Shown here: positions 6,506 to 21,396 of the stretch, one piece after another
How the letters are laid out: every line of letters begins with the position of its first letter
Position numbering within the stretch: the stretch's first letter is position 1
Virus record (IMG/VR): IMGVR_UViG_3300032278_003485
Span: 1 to 21,526 of that record
Source: a virus
Reading direction: 5' to 3' (one strand)
DNA: 21,526 bases
The notes under the pieces: generated by a model
Databases searched by the model: none
Told to the model about the DNA's origin: nothing
The model's input: only the letters and a program-made list of their open reading frames with translations
Translations under genes and position numbers: made by a program

Positions 6506-9500
6506 TTAAGTTTTAGTAACTAAAAATTCAACTCTTCTATTAGTCTCAAAGCCAGGTGGTGGTGCACCACTAACCCAAAGTTTTTCAGTATCCCCCTTAC
6601 CTACAGATATGATACGATTTCCACTAATACCATTAGATACTAAATGGTTCTTTATTGCATCGGCCCGATCTTGTGAAAGTGTGAGCAATGCTGCTGAACT
6701 CGGGCCCGAGGCAGTATGTCCACTAACCTCAATTTCCATAGTAGGATTATCTTTCATAAGATCAGCAAGTTTATCAAGTGTCTCGGTTGCAGATTTTTTC
6801 TCAGTAAATGTTGTTTTATTAGGGTTAAATAGTATATCTTCAATATCAAGTTGTTGGTCTTTTTCAACCATTTTTATTTTATCTGGTTTAGGTTCTTCAT
6901 CTTGTGGTGTATTTGCTGCCGCAGGTGATGTGGAATTATCATCTGTTCCCGAAGGTGTTCCACTTGGGTCAGTTGGTGGATCAGGTGGATTTGCTGCTTT
7001 TGCGGCCTCGTTTTCCGCTATCTTTTTCTTCAAAGCTTTTTCGGCCTCGTTTTCCGCTATCTTTTTCTTCAAATATGCCTTTTTCGCCTCGTTCTTTTCT
7101 TTTAAATCTTTTTCTTTTTTCTCTATAACTCCAAGTTTATCCGATATTCTTCTATTAGAATCAATTCTTATTTGACCTTTTATAGTTGTATTCCAACTAT
7201 CTGTACCTACGGTCTGATCAACACCCAAAACTTGAAAAAGGCAATATTTTTGATATTCTTCTGGAATATAATCTACATGAAATGCATTTCCTGGAATAAT
7301 CCCACCACATCCATCAAGTGTTATTTCTAATTCTACTGGTGCCATTACATCAACTTTATTCCTATCTTCTACTGGTATACCAGATACCCTTCCGTGAATA
7401 TGATCTTTCATAAGTTCATGAAAAACTATCCCATCCTCAGCTTCCAACCACATTATACCATCTTCATCATATAAAGTAAACCCATCTTTATACGAATCCC
7501 AAAGTTTTTTGTTTTTAACCCCATCTCCAGCCCAGCCTGTAATATGGTCAGTATCGGCGCCATCCCAATTACCATCAGGTCCTGCTACATTATAATAATG
7601 TTTTTTTGCATCCTCGGTTTTAGCGGCCTGGTCAATCTTTTTTTCTGCTGCTAAATCATCTTGATCTTCTTCCCTTTCGGTTTTTGGTTTTTTGCTAGCC
7701 GGGTCTTTTCCCCAACCAAATACCGTATACCAATCAATAAATTCAAAATTAATTCCTTTACCATGCCCAAAATTTTCACCAGATGGTACATTTGATTCCC
7801 TTTCTCCATCAGTTGTTAAGTTATATGGATTTTTACTCCCATATGGTGCAAATTTCTGAGCTGTAACACCTGCCCCTGTCCATTGTTGCTGTTCAAAAAA
7901 TCCTATCCGTTCCCAGGCCATTTTTATATCTTTTTGAGACTCATCAACACTTTCACCATGTAATCCCCCTACAGCAGTACCTGGGTCATCTCCTGCCGCG
8001 GCGGCTGAATTTGCAGTTCCAGGGGTTGAAGTACCACTATACATCGCAGTAACTTGCATAGAACTTGGAAGTTTTGCGGTTAAAGTTTGAGATTTAACAA
8101 TACTCTTTTCTCCCCACGATGGAAAAGTAAAAAGTTTACTTCCTGGATTTCCAAACTCATCGTTATCACCTGCATTTTCATTTGCTTTCCTATCATCTAA
8201 TAAATCTGAAACTGTATACGCCGTTCTATTTACATCAATTACTTTAATATTACCCTCTACATAGGGATCACCAACCATCTGAAAATTCCAAAATCCATCA
8301 GTATCTGCATTAATCTCAGTAAGTATCGCATTTACTCCTTCTTTAGTTGTTTTTGCGTCCTTAAATGCTTCTTCTAATAATTCCCAAGAAATTAATATAT
8401 TTCTTAAATAACCACCTTTATTCCAATCCTTATCTACTGCAAACTTATCAAAATATTCACCTTGGATTCCCTGAACAGAGTGTGCAACCATTTGTGTAAG
8501 TTGTTCATCCCACTTGGTATAAAGTAAATTAGCTGTAAGATTGATGACTAACTCCGCCACAAACGCCCACCAAGGAAGGTCTTTTTCAAAGTTTTCTGGA
8601 GCTGTATTTTGTGCAGGAAACTGACCTGGTAACAACCACCTATTTCTGTCTGGTGTATATAAATGTCTATGATTTCGTATTACAACCGGTTGAAATTCTG
8701 CTTCATGAATATTTGAAGTTGGGTTTCCATTTTTCATTAAAAATTTACCAGAATTATCTGGATACAATTTTGGTTCTATACTCCTAAAAGAAGATGTAGT
8801 TTTAAAACTTCCATCGTATTTACCCAAAAATCTACTTAAAACATTATCTTCAAACCATCCCCAAGACACATACGGGCCACACTTTTTTTCAGTAAAGAAG
8901 TTACCCGCCCTAACTGGTGTAAAAATTCCAGGAGGTTGAGATTTTTTACCTGAATTCCAACTATCCCAATCTTCTTTAGGTGTTAGGGGTTTCATATCTT
9001 CTACTCCGAAAGGCCAAGCCTCCACTACTGCAGATAATGAAAGTAAAGTTTCTTTAAAGGCTGACATAAATTCTGGTAAACTCATGGTAGGTCCGTCTCC
9101 AGCATCATCTCCTGCATCGGGTGGTTTTCCAGGATTATCCAATGAAGCATTTAACATATTTACTCCTCTTGAAACAATCGTAGTTGTACAATCAATTCCA
9201 CCATCTTCCCTTAAAGACCACTCCCAATTAGAAATTACTCCTGCCATTGCATCATAATTACCCTTATTTTCTATGATTCTATTTTGTAAAAGAGAATATG
9301 CTGTTCCATTTATCATATCTTCTTCATTAGAGATGTCCAGATCCGGGGCATCTGGTATACTCCATCCCCATTCTAATAAAACTCCCTTACCATGTGCCAT
9401 AAAATGAGGTGATAACCTATTTAAATCTTGAAATGACCAACAGGTCCAATTTATACTAGCTTCTCTTATTGCAGATAAACCACCTTTATAACTAACACTT

Positions 9501-9943
9501 ATATCTTTAATTCCTGATATTGGACGTTTTAATCCACCAGTTACAGTTTCAAGTATTCCTTCTTTTGTTCCTGACCTATTGGCGTATAATTCATCAAACC
9601 CTTCAAATGGTTTTTCATTGACAGTACCATCCGGATTAATACCTGATACTTCACCTCCAAAAATTGTTGAATATTTCAGTCCTTTTTTTGAATTATGTAC
9701 CTTTTGAAATATAGGATTACCATCTTTATCTTCTTCTCCAACTTTTTGTATACTCTCCACAGTACTATCCACAGGAGAAAACACTCTTACCCAAATAGCT
9801 TTAGAAAAAGTACTTTTAAATGTATCTTCGTGTGGACTTTTTTCTGCAAGCGGATCTTTCCCATCAAAATCTCTGGATACTGCTTGACTTCGATTGAATA
9901 ATGTTTTTCTTATATCTTCATGAATTGGTGCTAAGGCTATCAT
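6506..9943 (-). CDS. Large baseplate protein with C-terminal OmpA-like peptidoglycan-binding domain
   Basis: 1145 residues; ATG overlaps the stop of the gp53-like gene (ATGA). The N-terminal ~220 residues (GLKRPISGIKDISVSYKGG, then INWTCWSFQDLNRLSPHF and LLEWGW) are of a kind I associate with large baseplate/hub proteins of marine T4-like phages. Residues ~850-930 (LEITLDGCGGIIPGNAFHVD, FQVLGVDQTV, WNTTIKGQIRI) look like a second beta-rich domain. Residues ~943-975 are a charged helical linker with a 13-residue tandem repeat, then ~40 Pro/Gly/Ser/Asp-rich residues. The last ~115 residues are an OmpA-C domain: DILFNPNKTTF, EIEVSGHTAS, LSQDRADAIKNHLVSNGI, and the terminal NRRVEFLV. This domain binds peptidoglycan in outer-membrane proteins. 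In a tail it would contact the murein during penetration. The GHTD aspartate is Ala here. Confidence 0.85.
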   Translation of the reverse strand: MIALAPIHEDIRKTLFNRSQAVSRDFDGKDPLAEKSPHEDTFKSTFSKAIWVRVFSPVDSTVESIQKVGEEDKDGNPIFQKVHNSKKGLKYSTIFGGEVSGINPDGTVNEKPFEGFDELYANRSGTKEGILETVTGGLKRPISGIKDISVSYKGGLSAIREASINWTCWSFQDLNRLSPHFMAHGKGVLLEWGWSIPDAPDLDISNEEDMINGTAYSLLQNRIIENKGNYDAMAGVISNWEWSLREDGGIDCTTTIVSRGVNMLNASLDNPGKPPDAGDDAGDGPTMSLPEFMSAFKETLLSLSAVVEAWPFGVEDMKPLTPKEDWDSWNSGKKSQPPGIFTPVRAGNFFTEKKCGPYVSWGWFEDNVLSRFLGKYDGSFKTTSSFRSIEPKLYPDNSGKFLMKNGNPTSNIHEAEFQPVVIRNHRHLYTPDRNRWLLPGQFPAQNTAPENFEKDLPWWAFVAELVINLTANLLYTKWDEQLTQMVAHSVQGIQGEYFDKFAVDKDWNKGGYLRNILISWELLEEAFKDAKTTKEGVNAILTEINADTDGFWNFQMVGDPYVEGNIKVIDVNRTAYTVSDLLDDRKANENAGDNDEFGNPGSKLFTFPSWGEKSIVKSQTLTAKLPSSMQVTAMYSGTSTPGTANSAAAAGDDPGTAVGGLHGESVDESQKDIKMAWERIGFFEQQQWTGAGVTAQKFAPYGSKNPYNLTTDGERESNVPSGENFGHGKGINFEFIDWYTVFGWGKDPASKKPKTEREEDQDDLAAEKKIDQAAKTEDAKKHYYNVAGPDGNWDGADTDHITGWAGDGVKNKKLWDSYKDGFTLYDEDGIMWLEAEDGIVFHELMKDHIHGRVSGIPVEDRNKVDVMAPVELEITLDGCGGIIPGNAFHVDYIPEEYQKYCLFQVLGVDQTVGTDSWNTTIKGQIRIDSNRRISDKLGVIEKKEKDLKEKNEAKKAYLKKKIAENEAEKALKKKIAENEAAKAANPPDPPTDPSGTPSGTDDNSTSPAAANTPQDEEPKPDKIKMVEKDQQLDIEDILFNPNKTTFTEKKSATETLDKLADLMKDNPTMEIEVSGHTASGPSSAALLTLSQDRADAIKNHLVSNGISGNRIISVGKGDTEKLWVSGAPPPGFETNRRVEFLVTKT
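7003..7073 (-). repeat. Tandem 39-nt direct repeat in the linker of the OmpA-domain protein
   Basis: Two copies of a 32-nt block (7003-7034 and 7042-7073) are identical and sit 39 nt apart, encoding the 13-residue unit KKKIAENEAEKAL and then KKKIAENEAAKAA. A degenerate unit (KEKNEAKKAYL) precedes them. The alternating Lys/Glu/Ala pattern predicts a helical or coiled-coil rod whose length can change by slippage, joining the baseplate part to the OmpA-like domain. Confidence 0.9.
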
Positions 9944-15713: not shown

Positions 15714-18700
15714 TTATGCTGTTGCTATTGAATCAATAAAACCACCAGTATTTCTTTTTATACCTTTTAAATTCTGTGCCATTACTCCCTCTTTACCCAT
15801 TAAACCAATAAGTGTATCTAATTTGGCGTTAGTTGAATCAAGTTTAAGCTCAACAGGATTTGCTTCTTCACCACCTTCAGCGGTAGCTCCTTTTCCACCA
15901 CCACCTAATACTGCCCCACCCATCATTCCAAGTGCTGCTAATGTCATCAATACAGGAAGTGCTGGTAATAATGTCAATGCTCCAAGTGCCATTACCCCCA
16001 TACTATATCCTAATGCAGCAAATGCAGTTGATAACTTAAAAAGAGGTGCAACTATTGAAACTAATTGAGTTAATGGTTCAACTATACTACCTATTATTTT
16101 CATTCCTTGGCCAACGGCCATTAATCCAATACCAAGTACAACCAAAGCCCCTCCTAATGCTATCATTCCAATTACACCTGCTCCAAATATAATTGCTCCT
16201 GGCCCGGCAAGTAATGCTCCTAATAGAAACATCGCCGCTGTCAATCCAATTAAAGTTACACCTGCTAATGCCACTTTTCCATAATCTACAGCAGATAACA
16301 TTTGTAAGGCGAACGCAAATGGTATAAGTCCAACACTCATAATCAACATTGCCAGAGCACCTTGTATTAATTGTCCTTGTAACTTACCAAGTATTGCAAG
16401 TATAATAGTTAATCCAAGTAAAGTTACTCCTGCCATTGCTATTGATTCCCAACTAACATCACCAAATTCTTGTAGTGCCTTTGCCATTATAAACAAAGCT
16501 ACTGATACAACTAACATTGCTCCCGCTCCTTTAAGCATCTTCTTAAAACTTATCTTGGAATCTTTACCAAACATAGTTTCCATCATTCCACCACCCTTTT
16601 TACCTTTACCAGGTGCTGGTTTTTTAACCGATTTAGTTTTATCTGCTCTCTTTCCAAATCTTTTATCTGGTTTACCACTCTTTGTCAAAGGTACACCATC
16701 ACCACCCATTCCCATCATTTTCTTTGCTACACCTGTCATACTTGAACCGATTGACATAACCATATCTTTTGTACCTTTAAGAAAACCCATGATTCCACCA
16801 CCCATCAAATTTGTTCTAAATAAGAGTGCCGCTCCCGCCGCAAACATTATTACATCACCTAATCCAACTCCCATAACATTTGCTTCATTTAACCATTCTA
16901 TAAAGTCAGCAAAATAACCAAGTATTACTATCAAAACACCTGCAATTGCTAAAAATGGTGAAAGTAATCCAATGGCTAATGGTAAAAGTGCCTTAAAAAT
17001 ACCAAGAAATCTTGTCCAAATTTCTCCTATCTTTTTCATAACATCTGCTATTAAATCTTGTCTTTTCTTTTGTGCAGTAGTCATATTATTAATTTTATCT
17101 TGGTTAGTTATCATCTTACCCATTTCAGAAACTTCCATTCCAAATGCTGCTGCTAATGATTTCCGTTGAACTATATTCAATGCATTCCAATCTGATGCAC
17201 TACCAATTTGTTTAGTAATCTCTCTTTGCATTCCTTCTAAATCACCAGCTAATGCTAATTCTCGTGCCTTATCTGTATTGATATTACGACCAAGTAACAT
17301 AGACGCTTCCATTTGAGAGTTTATAGATGATTCAAAGTCTAATAAACTATCTGCTATCTGTTCAACAGTTGACATGCTCAGACCAAGTTTTCTGGCTGCT
17401 ATCGCTGCTTTAAATACGTTTTGTCCACCATCTTTTGCAAATCCAGCAAATGCTTCACTTGAATTTGCAACATCTTCCATAATTACGGCAGGAGCCACTC
17501 CATTTGCCTGTGATAATGCAGCCACGGAATCCAATTGGGACCCAACAGCATCTATACTACTAGCACCTACGGCCATCATTTGACCTGCAAGAACACCAGC
17601 ACTTTCTCCACCAATACCATACATTGCATTTAATCTGGCCATTTCTTTAACATTTGATTGTGTAATTTGACCTATTCCACCCAAGTTATCCATAATACCT
17701 ACGGCCCCAGCTTTAACATCTTCAGCACTTACACCAAGAAACTTCATTTCCATTGCAGTAGTATTAAGAATTTGTTGTAATCCTGCTGCTTCTGTAAATG
17801 TAAGTCCAAACTCTTTACGGGTTTCTGCCATTCCACCATAAAACATTTCTGCAACCTTCTTGGCTATCATCAAAACTGCCACTATTGCCAATGCCGGTCC
17901 TAACATTCCACCCATTGATTTATTTATTGTACCAAACACCTTACCCGCTGCTGTAAATCCTTCCTCTAAAGCTTTGGCTGCTTTTTTACCACTTGCTTTA
18001 ATATTTCTAACAGCCATACTAAAGTGCAGGGGATTATCTGGATCAAATGCTGCTTTAAGTGAACCTGTAACTTTTTCTGAAAATTCCTTCATTATCCCAT
18101 CCACTCCGATTATAGATGAGGCAAACTTACCTACCATATTCGATTCAAGAATTGATTGTACCTTTTCAAATGGAGCTACTATAAATGCAGCAGAAGATGC
18201 TACTTGGTCATTTAATACTTTCTGTCTTTTTGCTTCTTCCGATAAATTCTTTGCATGGTCAACATTTTCTTTCGCTAACTGTTCGGATTTCTCGGCTTGG
18301 GTAAGATTTTCGTCAAGTAACTTTTTCTTCTCCTCTAATTCTTTCTTTTCCGCCTTGGTCAACTTTCCCTTTGACATTAGTTTTGATATATCTTCTTCTA
18401 ATATATCTTGTTCGACCTTTAACGCTGGGAGTACTTCTCCCGTGACATATTGTTGATATCTCTCTGCATTTTTAAGTTGTTTGTCCTGTGAAGCTGTCAT
18501 ATCGTTAAAAGCTCCTGTACCGATATCATCATAGGCCGTACCTAACTGTTGTGCTTGACTATTTAATTCTCCTCCTAAACTAACCAATGGAGTCATTGCC
18601 TGTGCCCATTTCTTTTGAGATTCACTTCCCTTTTCTATTAAATCTGCTAAATCTGCTGCCCAAGTATTTAAAGTTTGTCCAGTACTTACTATTTGAAGCC

Positions 18701-19187
18701 TGTCCATTAAAAATTTCCGTTGGGCTATTCCTTGGAGATATAAATTTGAAGTTAATTTAGTAGTGACTTCACCGTCAGCCCTTTTCATTTTACCTATTTT
18801 TTCTTCGAGGTCGGCTTGAAGGGATTTTAAAGTATAAATCTTTCCTTCTTCTTTGGCCATCTTTTTAGCATGTTCGGCCTCCTCTTTCATCAATTTTTTC
18901 TTTTCTTTCTTTAATCTTTGATATTCTGCAATCTCCTTCTTAGTACCATTCGCGGCTTTGTCCTTCGCCGCGGATATTTCTTCATCAATATTTAAAAGTC
19001 GTATACTAACTGCCTCCAGACGAGTCAGTCCCTTTTCCATTTGCTGAATTTGTTTGACGCTCCTACCGTAATAAATGGATTTTTCTTTAGCAGTTTCTTC
19101 TTTGGCCTTGGCCATAGTAGGTACAATGGTATTATCAATACCACCCCAATATATTTCTCTTTGTTTATCTGTTTTTTCTAACGCCAT
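15714..19187 (-). CDS. Tape measure protein
   Basis: 1157 residues, the longest alpha-helical protein here, lying downstream of the tube and chaperone genes as tape measures do. Residues ~30-130 and ~240-330 are Lys/Glu-rich coiled coils. A first hydrophobic helix is near 425-445 (MLGPALAIVAVLMIAKKVAEM). An Ala/Gly/Met-rich helical region follows, then membrane-type helices near 725-760 (LLPLAIGLLSPFLAIAGVL), a basic Lys/Gly/Pro linker near 836-862, and from ~890 to ~1100 a nearly continuous set of hydrophobic helices before GGGGKGATAEGGEE. The protein sets tail length and, in other phages, its hydrophobic parts enter the host membrane during DNA injection. No lytic or peptidase motif is visible. 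The ATG has only a weak AGG upstream, and a CATAAATA box at 19201-19208 lies too close to the start to be a convincing promoter. Confidence 0.93.
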   Translation of the reverse strand: MALEKTDKQREIYWGGIDNTIVPTMAKAKEETAKEKSIYYGRSVKQIQQMEKGLTRLEAVSIRLLNIDEEISAAKDKAANGTKKEIAEYQRLKKEKKKLMKEEAEHAKKMAKEEGKIYTLKSLQADLEEKIGKMKRADGEVTTKLTSNLYLQGIAQRKFLMDRLQIVSTGQTLNTWAADLADLIEKGSESQKKWAQAMTPLVSLGGELNSQAQQLGTAYDDIGTGAFNDMTASQDKQLKNAERYQQYVTGEVLPALKVEQDILEEDISKLMSKGKLTKAEKKELEEKKKLLDENLTQAEKSEQLAKENVDHAKNLSEEAKRQKVLNDQVASSAAFIVAPFEKVQSILESNMVGKFASSIIGVDGIMKEFSEKVTGSLKAAFDPDNPLHFSMAVRNIKASGKKAAKALEEGFTAAGKVFGTINKSMGGMLGPALAIVAVLMIAKKVAEMFYGGMAETRKEFGLTFTEAAGLQQILNTTAMEMKFLGVSAEDVKAGAVGIMDNLGGIGQITQSNVKEMARLNAMYGIGGESAGVLAGQMMAVGASSIDAVGSQLDSVAALSQANGVAPAVIMEDVANSSEAFAGFAKDGGQNVFKAAIAARKLGLSMSTVEQIADSLLDFESSINSQMEASMLLGRNINTDKARELALAGDLEGMQREITKQIGSASDWNALNIVQRKSLAAAFGMEVSEMGKMITNQDKINNMTTAQKKRQDLIADVMKKIGEIWTRFLGIFKALLPLAIGLLSPFLAIAGVLIVILGYFADFIEWLNEANVMGVGLGDVIMFAAGAALLFRTNLMGGGIMGFLKGTKDMVMSIGSSMTGVAKKMMGMGGDGVPLTKSGKPDKRFGKRADKTKSVKKPAPGKGKKGGGMMETMFGKDSKISFKKMLKGAGAMLVVSVALFIMAKALQEFGDVSWESIAMAGVTLLGLTIILAILGKLQGQLIQGALAMLIMSVGLIPFAFALQMLSAVDYGKVALAGVTLIGLTAAMFLLGALLAGPGAIIFGAGVIGMIALGGALVVLGIGLMAVGQGMKIIGSIVEPLTQLVSIVAPLFKLSTAFAALGYSMGVMALGALTLLPALPVLMTLAALGMMGGAVLGGGGKGATAEGGEEANPVELKLDSTNAKLDTLIGLMGKEGVMAQNLKGIKRNTGGFIDSIATA

Positions 19188-19256: not shown

Positions 19257-19508
19257 TTACCAGCCTTTACGTGTTTTTCCGAGTTTCCCTTTTATGCCTA
19301 ATGATTTTGCAGAACCCTGTAATGTTTTATCTAATTGTTTAACGGCCTTATCTGCATTACGAACTGCCCTTTTTAATGCTGGATTATTTTCTATATCTGC
19401 AACAGAAAGAACTTTACTTACTCTCTTATCAAGAATGGCACCTAAAATTTTAGATAATATACCTTCTCTGAGTTGATCTTCTGTTAATTTATTTTTTGAT
19501 GAAAACAT
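19257..19508 (-). CDS. Small basic helical protein of unknown function
   Basis: 83 residues, ATG with a strong Shine-Dalgarno (TAGGAGATTCAAA). It sits between the putative chaperone frames and the tape measure. The sequence is charged and predicted helical (MFSSKNKLTEDQLREGILSK, then LKRAVRNADKAVKQLDKTLQ) with a basic, Gly/Lys-rich C-terminus ending TRKGW. No motif, signal peptide or membrane segment is seen and I recognise no family. The good ribosome site and the location make it a real gene, likely a tail assembly or minor tail factor. The 92 nt upstream of it contain no further gene. Confidence 0.72.
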   Translation of the reverse strand: MFSSKNKLTEDQLREGILSKILGAILDKRVSKVLSVADIENNPALKRAVRNADKAVKQLDKTLQGSAKSLGIKGKLGKTRKGW

Positions 19509-19600: not shown

Positions 19601-19834
19601 TTAGTGGCGGGGAATACCTGGTCGTGTAATACCAGATTTTTTATTTGATTTATTGTATTCTTTCTTTTCTTCTTCGTAGAATTTTACGGCTGATTGTATG
19701 TAAAATCGGCGCAGATAGGTTGGCATGTTATACACTTCTGTGAAATTAAATCCTCCTTTCCCATGAAAGCATAGGGAGAAGATTTGTGAGTGGATTGCGG
19801 GCTTATCTTCTGCCCGCAGGCCAAAAAAACTCAA
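19601..19834 (-). CDS. gp51-like short reading frame, probably made by frameshift from the preceding gene
   Basis: The open frame runs 77 codons from a nominal TTG at 19834. It overlaps the end of the 259-residue gene by 32 nt in the +1 frame. An in-frame TAG lies two codons before the TTG, there is no Shine-Dalgarno in front, and the only internal ATG is codon 37, so independent initiation looks poor. The protein part is convincing: GLRAEDKPAIHSQIF, CFHGKGGFNFTEVYNMPTY and LRRFYIQSAVKFYEEE resemble the short baseplate-hub assembly (gp51-type) proteins of T4-like marine phages. The tail ends with ITRPGIPRH. I infer it is translated as the C-terminal extension of the upstream protein, giving ~326 residues. 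In other phages such G/GT-type pairs are tail assembly chaperones. Confidence 0.78.
   Translation of the reverse strand: MSFFGLRAEDKPAIHSQIFSLCFHGKGGFNFTEVYNMPTYLRRFYIQSAVKFYEEEKKEYNKSNKKSGITRPGIPRH
19796..19829 (-). promoter_or_regulatory. Candidate programmed ribosomal frameshift signal
   Basis: In the mRNA sense: seven consecutive T (19829-19823) read as codons Phe252-Phe253 plus the first base of TGG, then GGCC, then a perfect 7-bp hairpin TGCGGGC/GCCCGCA (19818-19812 with 19802-19796) around a 9-nt loop that contains the zero-frame TAA (19805-19803). A +1 slip lets both Phe tRNAs re-pair with TTT and moves decoding to GGC CTG CGG, the frame of the gp51-like extension. A -2 slip also reaches it, with one extra Phe. 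Six of seven pairs are G-C in an AT-rich genome. No U-tract follows the stem, so it is not a terminator. Confidence 0.7.
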
Positions 19835-20582
19835 CGTCTAATGGAATGTCCATAGTCGTATCTTCACCAGTAGTTTCACTGGTAAAGGTAAAAGACATAT
19901 CAACATCAGGCGTGATTTTTATAAGATGTTCCCTAAATGAAAGGGAATCACGAGATAGTAATTCGTTCTCCACGAACTCACTAATTCGTTTTAGTGATGT
20001 ATCTCCATTAACCGACACGATTGCCTTTTTCATTCGTGTTGTGATTTCTGCAGTAACACCACTTTCTTTTGCGAATTTCTTGTATGCTTTTAATTCAGCA
20101 TCAATTTCTTTTTCTTCTTTATGTGTTAATAGACGAAACAGAATTTTAACTTTTGAAGATGGTAAGTCAAATTCAAACTCATTTTTACCACTCTTAAATA
20201 ATTTATAATCTATCTTTTTATCACCAACTTTAGTTAAATCAAAAGTTTCCTCTTGTTTATCTCCTGTAGATGGATCCGTAAGTGATACAATATAATCTTT
20301 ACCATATCCAAGAATCCTTGTTGCAATCATAATTGCGTTTTTATCACCTAACAATAAATCATTGAGTGATACTTTTTCATCTACAATAACAGATTCCAAC
20401 AACTTATCCAAGACGATTCCTTTTTGAATAAGATTGCGAGAAGTTAAAATATCTTCTTCTTTTGCGGTCATATACTTTAACTCAATTGTTCCACCTGCCA
20501 GTGGTGAATCTTTTGAGTAAAGTTTTCCCTTAGAAGGCAAATCAACTACCTCTGTCGGAAACTGGCGTTTTTCTTCTGCCAT
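19803..20582 (-). CDS. T4-type baseplate/hub protein (gp26-like), putative tail assembly chaperone
   Basis: 259 residues; ATG with AAAGGAGAAATAAC. The sequence has the look of the T4_baseplate family: FPTEVVDLPSKGKLYSKDSP, IELKYMTAKEEDILTSRNLI, a long helical middle and a beta-rich C-terminus (DVDMSFTFTSETTGEDTTMD, VEFFWPAGRR). In T4 the family is assigned to baseplate hub assembly. Here the gene lies between tail tube and tape measure and ends in an overlapping +1 frame, which is the layout of the phage lambda G/GT-type tail assembly chaperones. The zero-frame product would be the short, abundant form and the shifted one the long form. No catalytic motif is expected or seen. The family call is good; the chaperone role is inferred from position and the slip site. 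Confidence 0.8.
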   Translation of the reverse strand: MAEEKRQFPTEVVDLPSKGKLYSKDSPLAGGTIELKYMTAKEEDILTSRNLIQKGIVLDKLLESVIVDEKVSLNDLLLGDKNAIMIATRILGYGKDYIVSLTDPSTGDKQEETFDLTKVGDKKIDYKLFKSGKNEFEFDLPSSKVKILFRLLTHKEEKEIDAELKAYKKFAKESGVTAEITTRMKKAIVSVNGDTSLKRISEFVENELLSRDSLSFREHLIKITPDVDMSFTFTSETTGEDTTMDIPLDVEFFWPAGRR

Positions 20583-20904: not shown

Positions 20905-21396
20905 TTAGAACTGTAGTATTGCGTAATCGTATCTAAGTGTCAAAGTTACATCAACTGGGTCTGTAGTATTTGCCCAATCTAAATCACCAAATGTTGCGTT
21001 AGCAATCCAAGTACCTTTAAGTGTCCACTCTTCAACCTTATCACCTACGGGTCCCAAAACATTAATTGTTACATCTTTTTTATAAAAATCTGAGTATCCA
21101 TCTCTACCTGTTACAGATTCATGAGATAACCGAACCCATTCCATACATGCCTGTGCGGCTGATGGAACAACAGGGTCATAAAGTGTAATTTCTAATTCTT
21201 CCCATGCTCCCTTACCTTTAACATATCGTTTAACATTGATGTGGTCAAGTTCGATAGTTTCAAAAGCAATTGTAGGTCTATTTGCTGTCTTAATAAGATA
21301 AGCAGGAATACCTTCAATATACATGATGTACCGATTTTTCGTTTTCGGTTCAAACGGTGTGAACATTATTTCTGAAGGATCTAATAAGTCTGGCAT
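20905..21396 (-). CDS. 19: Tail tube protein, gp19 type
   Basis: 163 residues, exactly the length of T4 gp19. ATG with CGGAG upstream (CGGAGATTAAAG). Start MPDLLDPSEIMFTPFEPKTK, the strand NRYIMYIEGIPAYLIKTANRP at ~21-41, the core ELDHINVKRYVKGKGAWEEL at ~49-68, ITLYDPV at 70-76, WTLKGTWIANATFGDLDW at ~124-141 and the final beta strand VTLTLRYDYAILQF all fit the T4 tube fold, which stacks in hexameric rings inside the sheath. No frameshift or truncation. The sheath gene would be expected upstream, outside the window. Confidence 0.95.
   Translation of the reverse strand: MPDLLDPSEIMFTPFEPKTKNRYIMYIEGIPAYLIKTANRPTIAFETIELDHINVKRYVKGKGAWEELEITLYDPVVPSAAQACMEWVRLSHESVTGRDGYSDFYKKDVTINVLGPVGDKVEEWTLKGTWIANATFGDLDWANTTDPVDVTLTLRYDYAILQF

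Follow-up and report, generated by a model that had tools for sequence, protein, structure and literature searches.

Frameshifting of the G-T type is widely conserved among long-tailed phages, with T4 singled out as the exception in a 2016 review (PMC5009743). The window, the whole 21,526-nt stretch of virus DNA analysed here (probably a fragment), carries a T4-like tail cluster and raises the question of whether a gp26-like gene of this family is also joined to a gp51-like frame by ribosomal frameshifting, and in which direction. An earlier note on the window had proposed a programmed shift of +1, or alternatively -2. Comparison with homologous loci strongly supports a programmed frameshift, with +1 as the better reading: such a shift very probably joins the two frames and yields a short (259 aa) and a long (326 aa) chaperone.

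Organization of the locus

On the minus strand, the order of genes is tail tube, chaperone (20582-19601) and tape measure, with two small ORFs in between (Table 1). The position of the candidate chaperone gene between tail tube and tape measure, as claimed earlier, was borne out by Pfam and PHROG profile matches of both neighbours. The seven-T run, the 4-nt spacer, the 7-bp hairpin with six G-C pairs and the stop in its loop proved exact to the base, and the overlap of the 259-codon gene with a 77-codon frame would give a +1 fusion of 326 aa, as against the approximately 326 residues expected. The stem pairs TGCGGGC (19818-19812) with GCCCGCA (19802-19796), six of the seven pairs being G-C, and encloses a 9-nt loop, AGAAGATAA (19811-19803), that ends with the zero-frame TAA. 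At the T-run, tRNA-Phe can re-pair in the +1 direction from UUU to UUU, and GGC is then the next codon.

Table 1. Features of the tail cluster in the window and slip sites in related phages
Feature	Coordinates	Strand	Evidence or remark
T4-like tail cluster	window, 21.5-kb virus record	-	
gp26-like gene, zero frame, 259 codons; putative short tail assembly chaperone (TAC-N / G analogue)	19803..20582	-	PF12322, phrog_150, AlphaFold2 model
Slip site TTTTTTT, zero frame TTT TTT TGG	19829-19823	-	UUU-Y kept in homologues
Spacer GGCC, 4 nt	19822-19819	-	Between T7 and hairpin
7-bp hairpin, likely stimulator	19796..19818	-	Begins 4 nt past the T-run; covariation in 19 loci
Zero-frame stop TAA	19803..19805	-	24 nt past the first T of the run
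77-codon ORF, +1/-2 frame, overlapping the gp26-like ORF	19834-19601	-	ORF list
+1-frame extension (putative gp51 C-terminal / T analogue), 73 codons plus stop	19601..19822	-	Conservation; profile match to cyanophage gp51 extension
gp19-like tail tube protein, upstream neighbour	20905..21396	-	PF06841, E 8.8e-7; phrog_4542, E 2.5e-25
Tape measure protein, downstream neighbour	15714..19187	-	phrog_4372 (tail length tape measure), E 1.1e-8
Slip site of Flavobacterium phage immuto			TTTCTTTGG
Slip site of megaphage LR756508			TTTCTATTC
Slip site of Listeria phage LIS04			TTTTTTAGT
Slip site of Streptococcus phage GXN1			TTCTTTCGT
Slip site of Bacillus phage SP-15			TTTTTTCAC
Slip site of Rhodothermus phage RM378			TTTTTTTGG

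Two further genes were observed in the window. An 83-aa ORF with a Shine-Dalgarno sequence (19257-19508, minus strand) separates the extension from the tape measure gene and has no family match. A 1145-aa baseplate-region protein (6506-9943, minus strand) ends in a C-terminal OmpA domain (PF00691, E 8e-17), which possibly binds peptidoglycan.

Conservation of the slip site

Homologues were collected by scanning IMG/VR with the gp26-like protein, and the best 80 of at least 600 relatives (49-88% identical), together with the window, form the set of 81 loci. One of the six recruiting search patterns was DVEFFWPA, which introduces a slight bias toward FFW; recruitment carried no bias toward TTT codons or toward the extension, and TAC-type sites (FFYP) cannot stem from that pattern. 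A site counted as +1 if U or C stood directly after UUU, since tRNA-Phe reads both UUU and UUC and would re-pair after the slip. The alignment proposed in the earlier note as a check of the T-run found such a UUU-Y site beside the gp26 stop in 81/81 loci, in the forms TTTTTTTGGCC (n = 58), TTTTTTTACCC (n = 18), TTTCTTTGGCC (n = 3), TTCTTTTGGCC (n = 1) and TTCTTTTACCC (n = 1). All 81 genes end in FF or FL followed by W or Y and then P, with the stop 18, 21 or 24 nt from the start of the site. Bacterial and archaeal genome bins supplied twelve more loci, and all twelve have the same arrangement with UUU-Y kept, which brings the loci with the +1 signal to 93 of the 93 examined. UUU-Y was present at every site seen, including those of isolate and megaphage relatives.

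The conservation of this site is extreme. A T7 run is in itself no rarity in the AT-rich window, where it occurs 16 times on both strands against 31 expected, and only twice on the coding strand; the gp26 bodies of the homologues contain none across 59.7 kb. Phe codons in these genes are 80% TTT, by which TTTTTT would be expected at the site in 64% of loci, and it is seen in 76/81 (binomial P 2e-10, phylogeny ignored). The dinucleotide CC directly after TGG/UGG or TAC/UAC (19819-19822 in the window) is likewise invariant in 81/81. It encodes Pro in an otherwise variable zero-frame tail, is read as GGC-C or ACC-C in the +1 frame, and may be part of the frameshift signal.

More than half of 13 genome-bin relatives (L224-L236) come from bins of Bacteroidota (Flavobacteriales, Winogradskyella, Saprospiraceae, Sphingobacteriales). 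This gives a hint of the hosts of the +1 group, with the reservation that bins may be contaminated.

The +1-frame extension and its frequent lack of a start

A conserved +1-frame extension follows the site in 81/81 loci, shortened only at contig ends, and its Gly-type consensus reads FFGLxPExK..IHEQIF..Y.GKGGFT..EVYNMP.YLRRFY. In 42/81 loci a +1-frame stop lies 5 or 11 nt upstream of the site, and entry into the frame must therefore be at the site itself. The check for a missing start returned the result anticipated by the earlier note: 37/81 loci have no ATG, GTG or TTG in the +1 frame before the conserved His, and 65/81 have no ATG. In the window, the sole start in this frame before the conserved part is TTG 19834, which has no Shine-Dalgarno sequence, while gp26 and several neighbouring genes possess one.

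These counts bear on the reading of the downstream frame as a gene of its own, translated independently or by coupling at the upstream stop, which is how gp51 of cyanophages and KVP40 is annotated now. The frames do overlap, a TTG opens the +1 frame of the window, and an ATG lies nearby in some relatives. A separate gene is nevertheless very unlikely: the missing starts and the absence of a Shine-Dalgarno sequence at the window TTG tell against it, it leaves the 81/81 conservation of UUU-Y unexplained, and T4 gp51 is homologous to the cyanophage fusion across the junction. The opposite picture, in which homologues keep an independent ATG with a Shine-Dalgarno sequence and have no T-run, was examined and is contradicted by the slip-site and start-codon counts.

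In the records of Syn9 (L115, 2701-2892), KVP40 (L223, 2113-2280), immuto (L083, 6851-6961) and RM378 (L222, 2998-3174), the extension is annotated separately from an internal ATG or is partly unannotated, with no frameshift in the feature table.

Direction of the proposed shift

A -1 reading of the T-run was rejected, as the -1 frame is not kept open and is closed within 17 codons in many loci. The extension lies in the +1 frame and not in the -1 frame that a shift at X_XXY_YYZ would enter. A -2 shift would reach the same frame as +1 and add one Phe, as in phage Mu, for which -2 shifting is known (PMC5009743), and at T7 the P-site tRNA-Phe could re-pair two bases back. Such re-pairing is confined to uninterrupted runs, and the frame is kept at sites that offer none, namely TTCTTTT (L045 and L071), TTCTTTC (GXN1) and TTTCTATTC (LR756508). 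The -2 alternative of the earlier note accordingly fails as a common mechanism and is, as an explanation of the window, quite unlikely. UUU-Y is retained in each of the variants TTCTTTT, TTTCTTT, TTCTTTC, TTTTTTC and TTTCTATTC, and +1 is the only shift that can serve as a rule for all of them. At the homologous place T4 gp26 has TTC TTT GAG, where such a slip is impossible.

The same variant sites weigh against two explanations that do not involve the ribosome. Slippage of RNA polymerase on the run, homopolymeric T7 in 76/81 loci, would give some transcripts with 6 or 9 U that encode the fusion directly. A 7-nt run is short for bacterial polymerase slippage, and interrupted sites (TTTCTTT, TTCTTTT, TTTCTATTC) retain the arrangement, which makes this very improbable. 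Homopolymers are prone to sequencing error, and the T-run is one, so that an error, or decay of the gene, might have split one continuous gene. This is improbable to the point of being negligible, given that the frame relation is identical in 93 loci of independent assemblies and is shared by isolates (immuto, Mel-JY01, RM378, SP-15), and that the site is not a homopolymer in several of these. The variant sites therefore disfavour polymerase slippage, sequencing error and -2 slipping as a general rule, which leaves re-pairing of peptidyl-tRNA-Phe one base forward, from UUU to UUY.

The hairpin

The window hairpin is more stable than shuffled sequences (z = -4.0), and its register is common to 19 loci (18 distinct). 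Four of the seven pairs have changes on both sides (GCGGGC/GCCCGC, GCCGCC/GGCGGC, GCCGGC/GCCGGC, GCCGGT/ACCGGC), and the covariation score is 0.355 against 0.104 for shuffled alignments (0/500), with slid registers reaching at most 0.084; since the 19 loci were picked for pairing in the window register, the percentage paired and the covariation are inflated. The double changes between subgroups remain informative despite this selection. A strong hairpin occurs in roughly 30/80 loci in two main registers. Some further loci show a shorter hairpin in a different register, again with the stop in its loop, and about half of the loci are without any. An Rfam search gave no match. The hairpin as an essential signal was rejected, being absent from many loci. 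The hairpin described in the earlier note is thus real and covarying, but it belongs to part of the family and is an accessory rather than the core of the signal; from its distribution it is probably a stimulator restricted to certain lineages.

Relationship to T4 gp26 and gp51

The gp26-like protein matches the Pfam family T4_baseplate (PF12322; E 6.7e-8, 32.9 bits, above the cut-off of 24.5) and phrog_150 (baseplate hub; E 1.3e-9). The gp26-like protein and the extension were modelled apart. The AlphaFold2 model of the former (pLDDT 88.8) resembles T4-like hub assembly proteins in BFVD, and a Foldseek search of this model against the PDB gave nothing under E 0.001. With VIA-align, its top solved structures were YqbN (XkdN-like; Z 5.9) and the HK97 tail assembly chaperone 2ob9 (Z 5.6), matches that cover residues 1-95 and have Z below the level of a sure match. 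The predicted N-terminal fold thus bears a resemblance, suggestive only, to those of the HK97 and YqbN chaperones. The extension was modelled as three helices (pLDDT 78), and its search against BFVD gave nothing under E 0.001.

In T4 itself, PF12322 matches both gp26 (E 8e-65) and residues 1-201 of gp51 (E 2e-53), and T4-type gp26 and gp51 profiles match each other (E 5e-23). The two are therefore paralogues, gp51 having a C-terminal extension; by these profile comparisons, gp26 corresponds to the short form, as the shorter paralogue, and gp51 to the fusion. Over its full length, and with no gap at the junction, the cyanophage -1 fusion can be aligned to T4 gp51 (E 8e-18); the window fusion is colinear with this cyanophage fusion, again across the junction (E 1.7e-7). 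The window extension alone matches the cyanophage gp51 extension in a profile-profile comparison (E 5.4e-6), and the latter matches the T4 gp51 C-terminus (E 1.7e-10). Direct matches of the window extension are weak (T4, 0.015; phrog_634, E 0.053), and its link to gp51 therefore runs through the cyanophages. Similarly, single sequences of T4 gp26 and gp51 gave no match to the window alignment, and cyanophage-relative profiles were needed as a bridge. When whole genomes were searched, the window-type extension profile was found in the +1 frame just past gp26 in LIS04 (E 1.4e-4) and SP-15 (0.002). Complete phages of the +1 group have one PF12322 gene copy per genome, compared with two in T4.

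Judged from sequence, the gp26/gp51-like gene very probably encodes a G/GT-type tail assembly chaperone. That T4 hub-assembly proteins and G/GT chaperones belong together, as had been suggested for this locus, is supported by PF12322, by the fusion alignments and by the suggestive matches to solved structures; the T4 half of this unification had been published earlier.

Relatives with a probable -1 shift or two genes

Syn9 has a single gp26 gene, and the gp51-like segment is found at its end, in the -1 frame. All 81 of 81 cyanophage (Syn9)-type gp26 loci (L115, L116-L195) read NNT TTT TTC xxx stop, that is, a canonical U_UUU_UUC heptamer, and U_UUU_UUC or U_UUU_UUU is present at the same FF motif in KVP40, HTVC008M, P-SSM2, phiM12 and phiW-14. 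Two separate paralogous PF12322 genes occur in T4 and in the phages RB43, Aeromonas 31 and Campylobacter CP220. In CP220 (L212, L214) these genes are about 9 kb apart, and one has an in-frame gp51 extension. In Salmonella phage Vi01 (L207, about 2200-2420), the PF12322 gene ends in EIFI*; the -1 frame holds a gp51-like segment there, but a canonical heptamer is missing.

In a tree of 39 chaperone domains, a branch with support 89/88, present in 92% of bootstrap trees, has 25/25 +1 genes together on one of its sides; many branches of the tree are long, which leaves its details unsure. On the other side are the -1 and two-gene phages; the very long branch of CP220 gp26 stands beside the +1 group. 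A single change of shift direction suffices for this tree. The +1 clade comprises the window group, immuto, Mel-JY01, RM378, SP-15/LIS04, GXN1 and a megaphage, and the viruses with this shift appear to be a large, mostly marine T4-related group. On balance, though with considerable reserve, we favour a scenario in which this deep T4-like clade has in its chaperone gene a minimal new type of +1 site, made up of UUU-Y and an ordinary sense codon after it, a sister clade uses these FF codons for shifting -1, the direction was switched once within one orthologous gene, and gene duplication replaces recoding on the T4 side.

Comparison with known systems

The window gene resembles lambda G/GT and the HK97-type TAC-N/TAC-NC in its place between tail tube and tape measure and in its predicted short and extended products. 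No sequence similarity of the gp26-like protein to lambda G was found, and unlike lambda, which shifts -1, the window's frame relation and slip sites demand +1. With T4 it shares the PF12322 family, whereas T4 has two separate genes in place of a single gene with a +1 shift. In Kyanoviridae, KVP40, phiM12 and phiW-14, genes of this family likewise have an extension in another frame at the FF motif, except that theirs lies in the -1 frame.

The closest parallel for the slip itself is release factor 2 (prfB), in which a single P-site tRNA slips +1 onto U (CUU_U or UUU_U). UUU_U is known to permit +1 shifting: in tests with release factor 2, CUU performs best and UUU belongs to the group that comes next (PMC10885494), and UUU_U is found in a minority of RF2 genes (PMC5009743). 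The prfB signal includes a slow A-site stop codon and an upstream Shine-Dalgarno-like element, whereas the window type has UGG or UAC in the A site and a hairpin in some lineages. This zero-frame A-site codon, UGG or UAC in most loci, is an ordinary sense codon and not a stop, and inspection of the listed locus contexts revealed no shared Shine-Dalgarno-like stimulator upstream of the site. Other +1 shifts in tail genes of tailed viruses are those of Listeria phage PSA and halovirus HSTV-2. The chaperone shift of HSTV-2 has been described as very likely +1 (PMC5009743); PSA differs in that it shifts at a proline codon, and in that the genes concerned are those of the capsid and tail shaft and not that of a chaperone.

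Proposed mechanism

What was computed is the site, its conservation, the open +1 frame, the frequent absence of a start, the hairpin covariation and the homology of both halves to T4-type chaperones; the ribosomal shift, its rate, tRNA-Phe as the slipping tRNA and the role in assembly are what we infer. The majority of ribosomes would read TTT TTT TGG CCN through to the stop and produce the short gp26-like chaperone. In a minority, peptidyl-tRNA-Phe would leave its UUU and re-pair one base forward with the UUU that overlaps it (in some relatives a UUC), GGC would be read in place of UGG, and +1 reading through the helical, conserved extension would yield the gp51-like long form. In the window subclade, the stop-bearing hairpin probably raises shifting. 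If the chaperone works as lambda G/GT does, the tape measure protein would be coated by the short form, the extension would recruit tail tube subunits to it, and both forms would be absent from the virion.

Significance

Parts of this picture have precedents. A 2010 survey recorded that gp51 of cyanophages and vibriophages is without its first approximately 200 residues, left this unexplained and did not mention frameshifting (PMC3037559). Vladimirov, Gautam and Davidson (2022) are cited for having identified the tail assembly chaperones of T4-like phages, for which they proposed a mechanism that does not involve frameshifting; one citing paper also credits them with poly-T -1 signals in T4-like phages. 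The T4 paralogue story is thus prior art, and the -1 sites in T4-like phages probably are as well. No report of a +1 shift in the gp26/gp51 family was found in the literature searched, which covers the 2022 work through its citations. The possible novelty lies in the +1 direction, in how deep it reaches (RM378, SP-15, immuto) and in the single switch of direction within one gene family.

For phages of the +1 group, these results correct the annotation, the extension being missed or doubtfully started in current records. In the T4-type chaperone family, the long form would have three possible origins, namely forward (+1) shifting, backward (-1) shifting and a second gene; together with the chaperone identification of 2022, the window locus helps to complete the T4-like picture. 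The family would also offer a natural series for studying forward versus backward ribosome movement on near-identical codons (UUU UUU).
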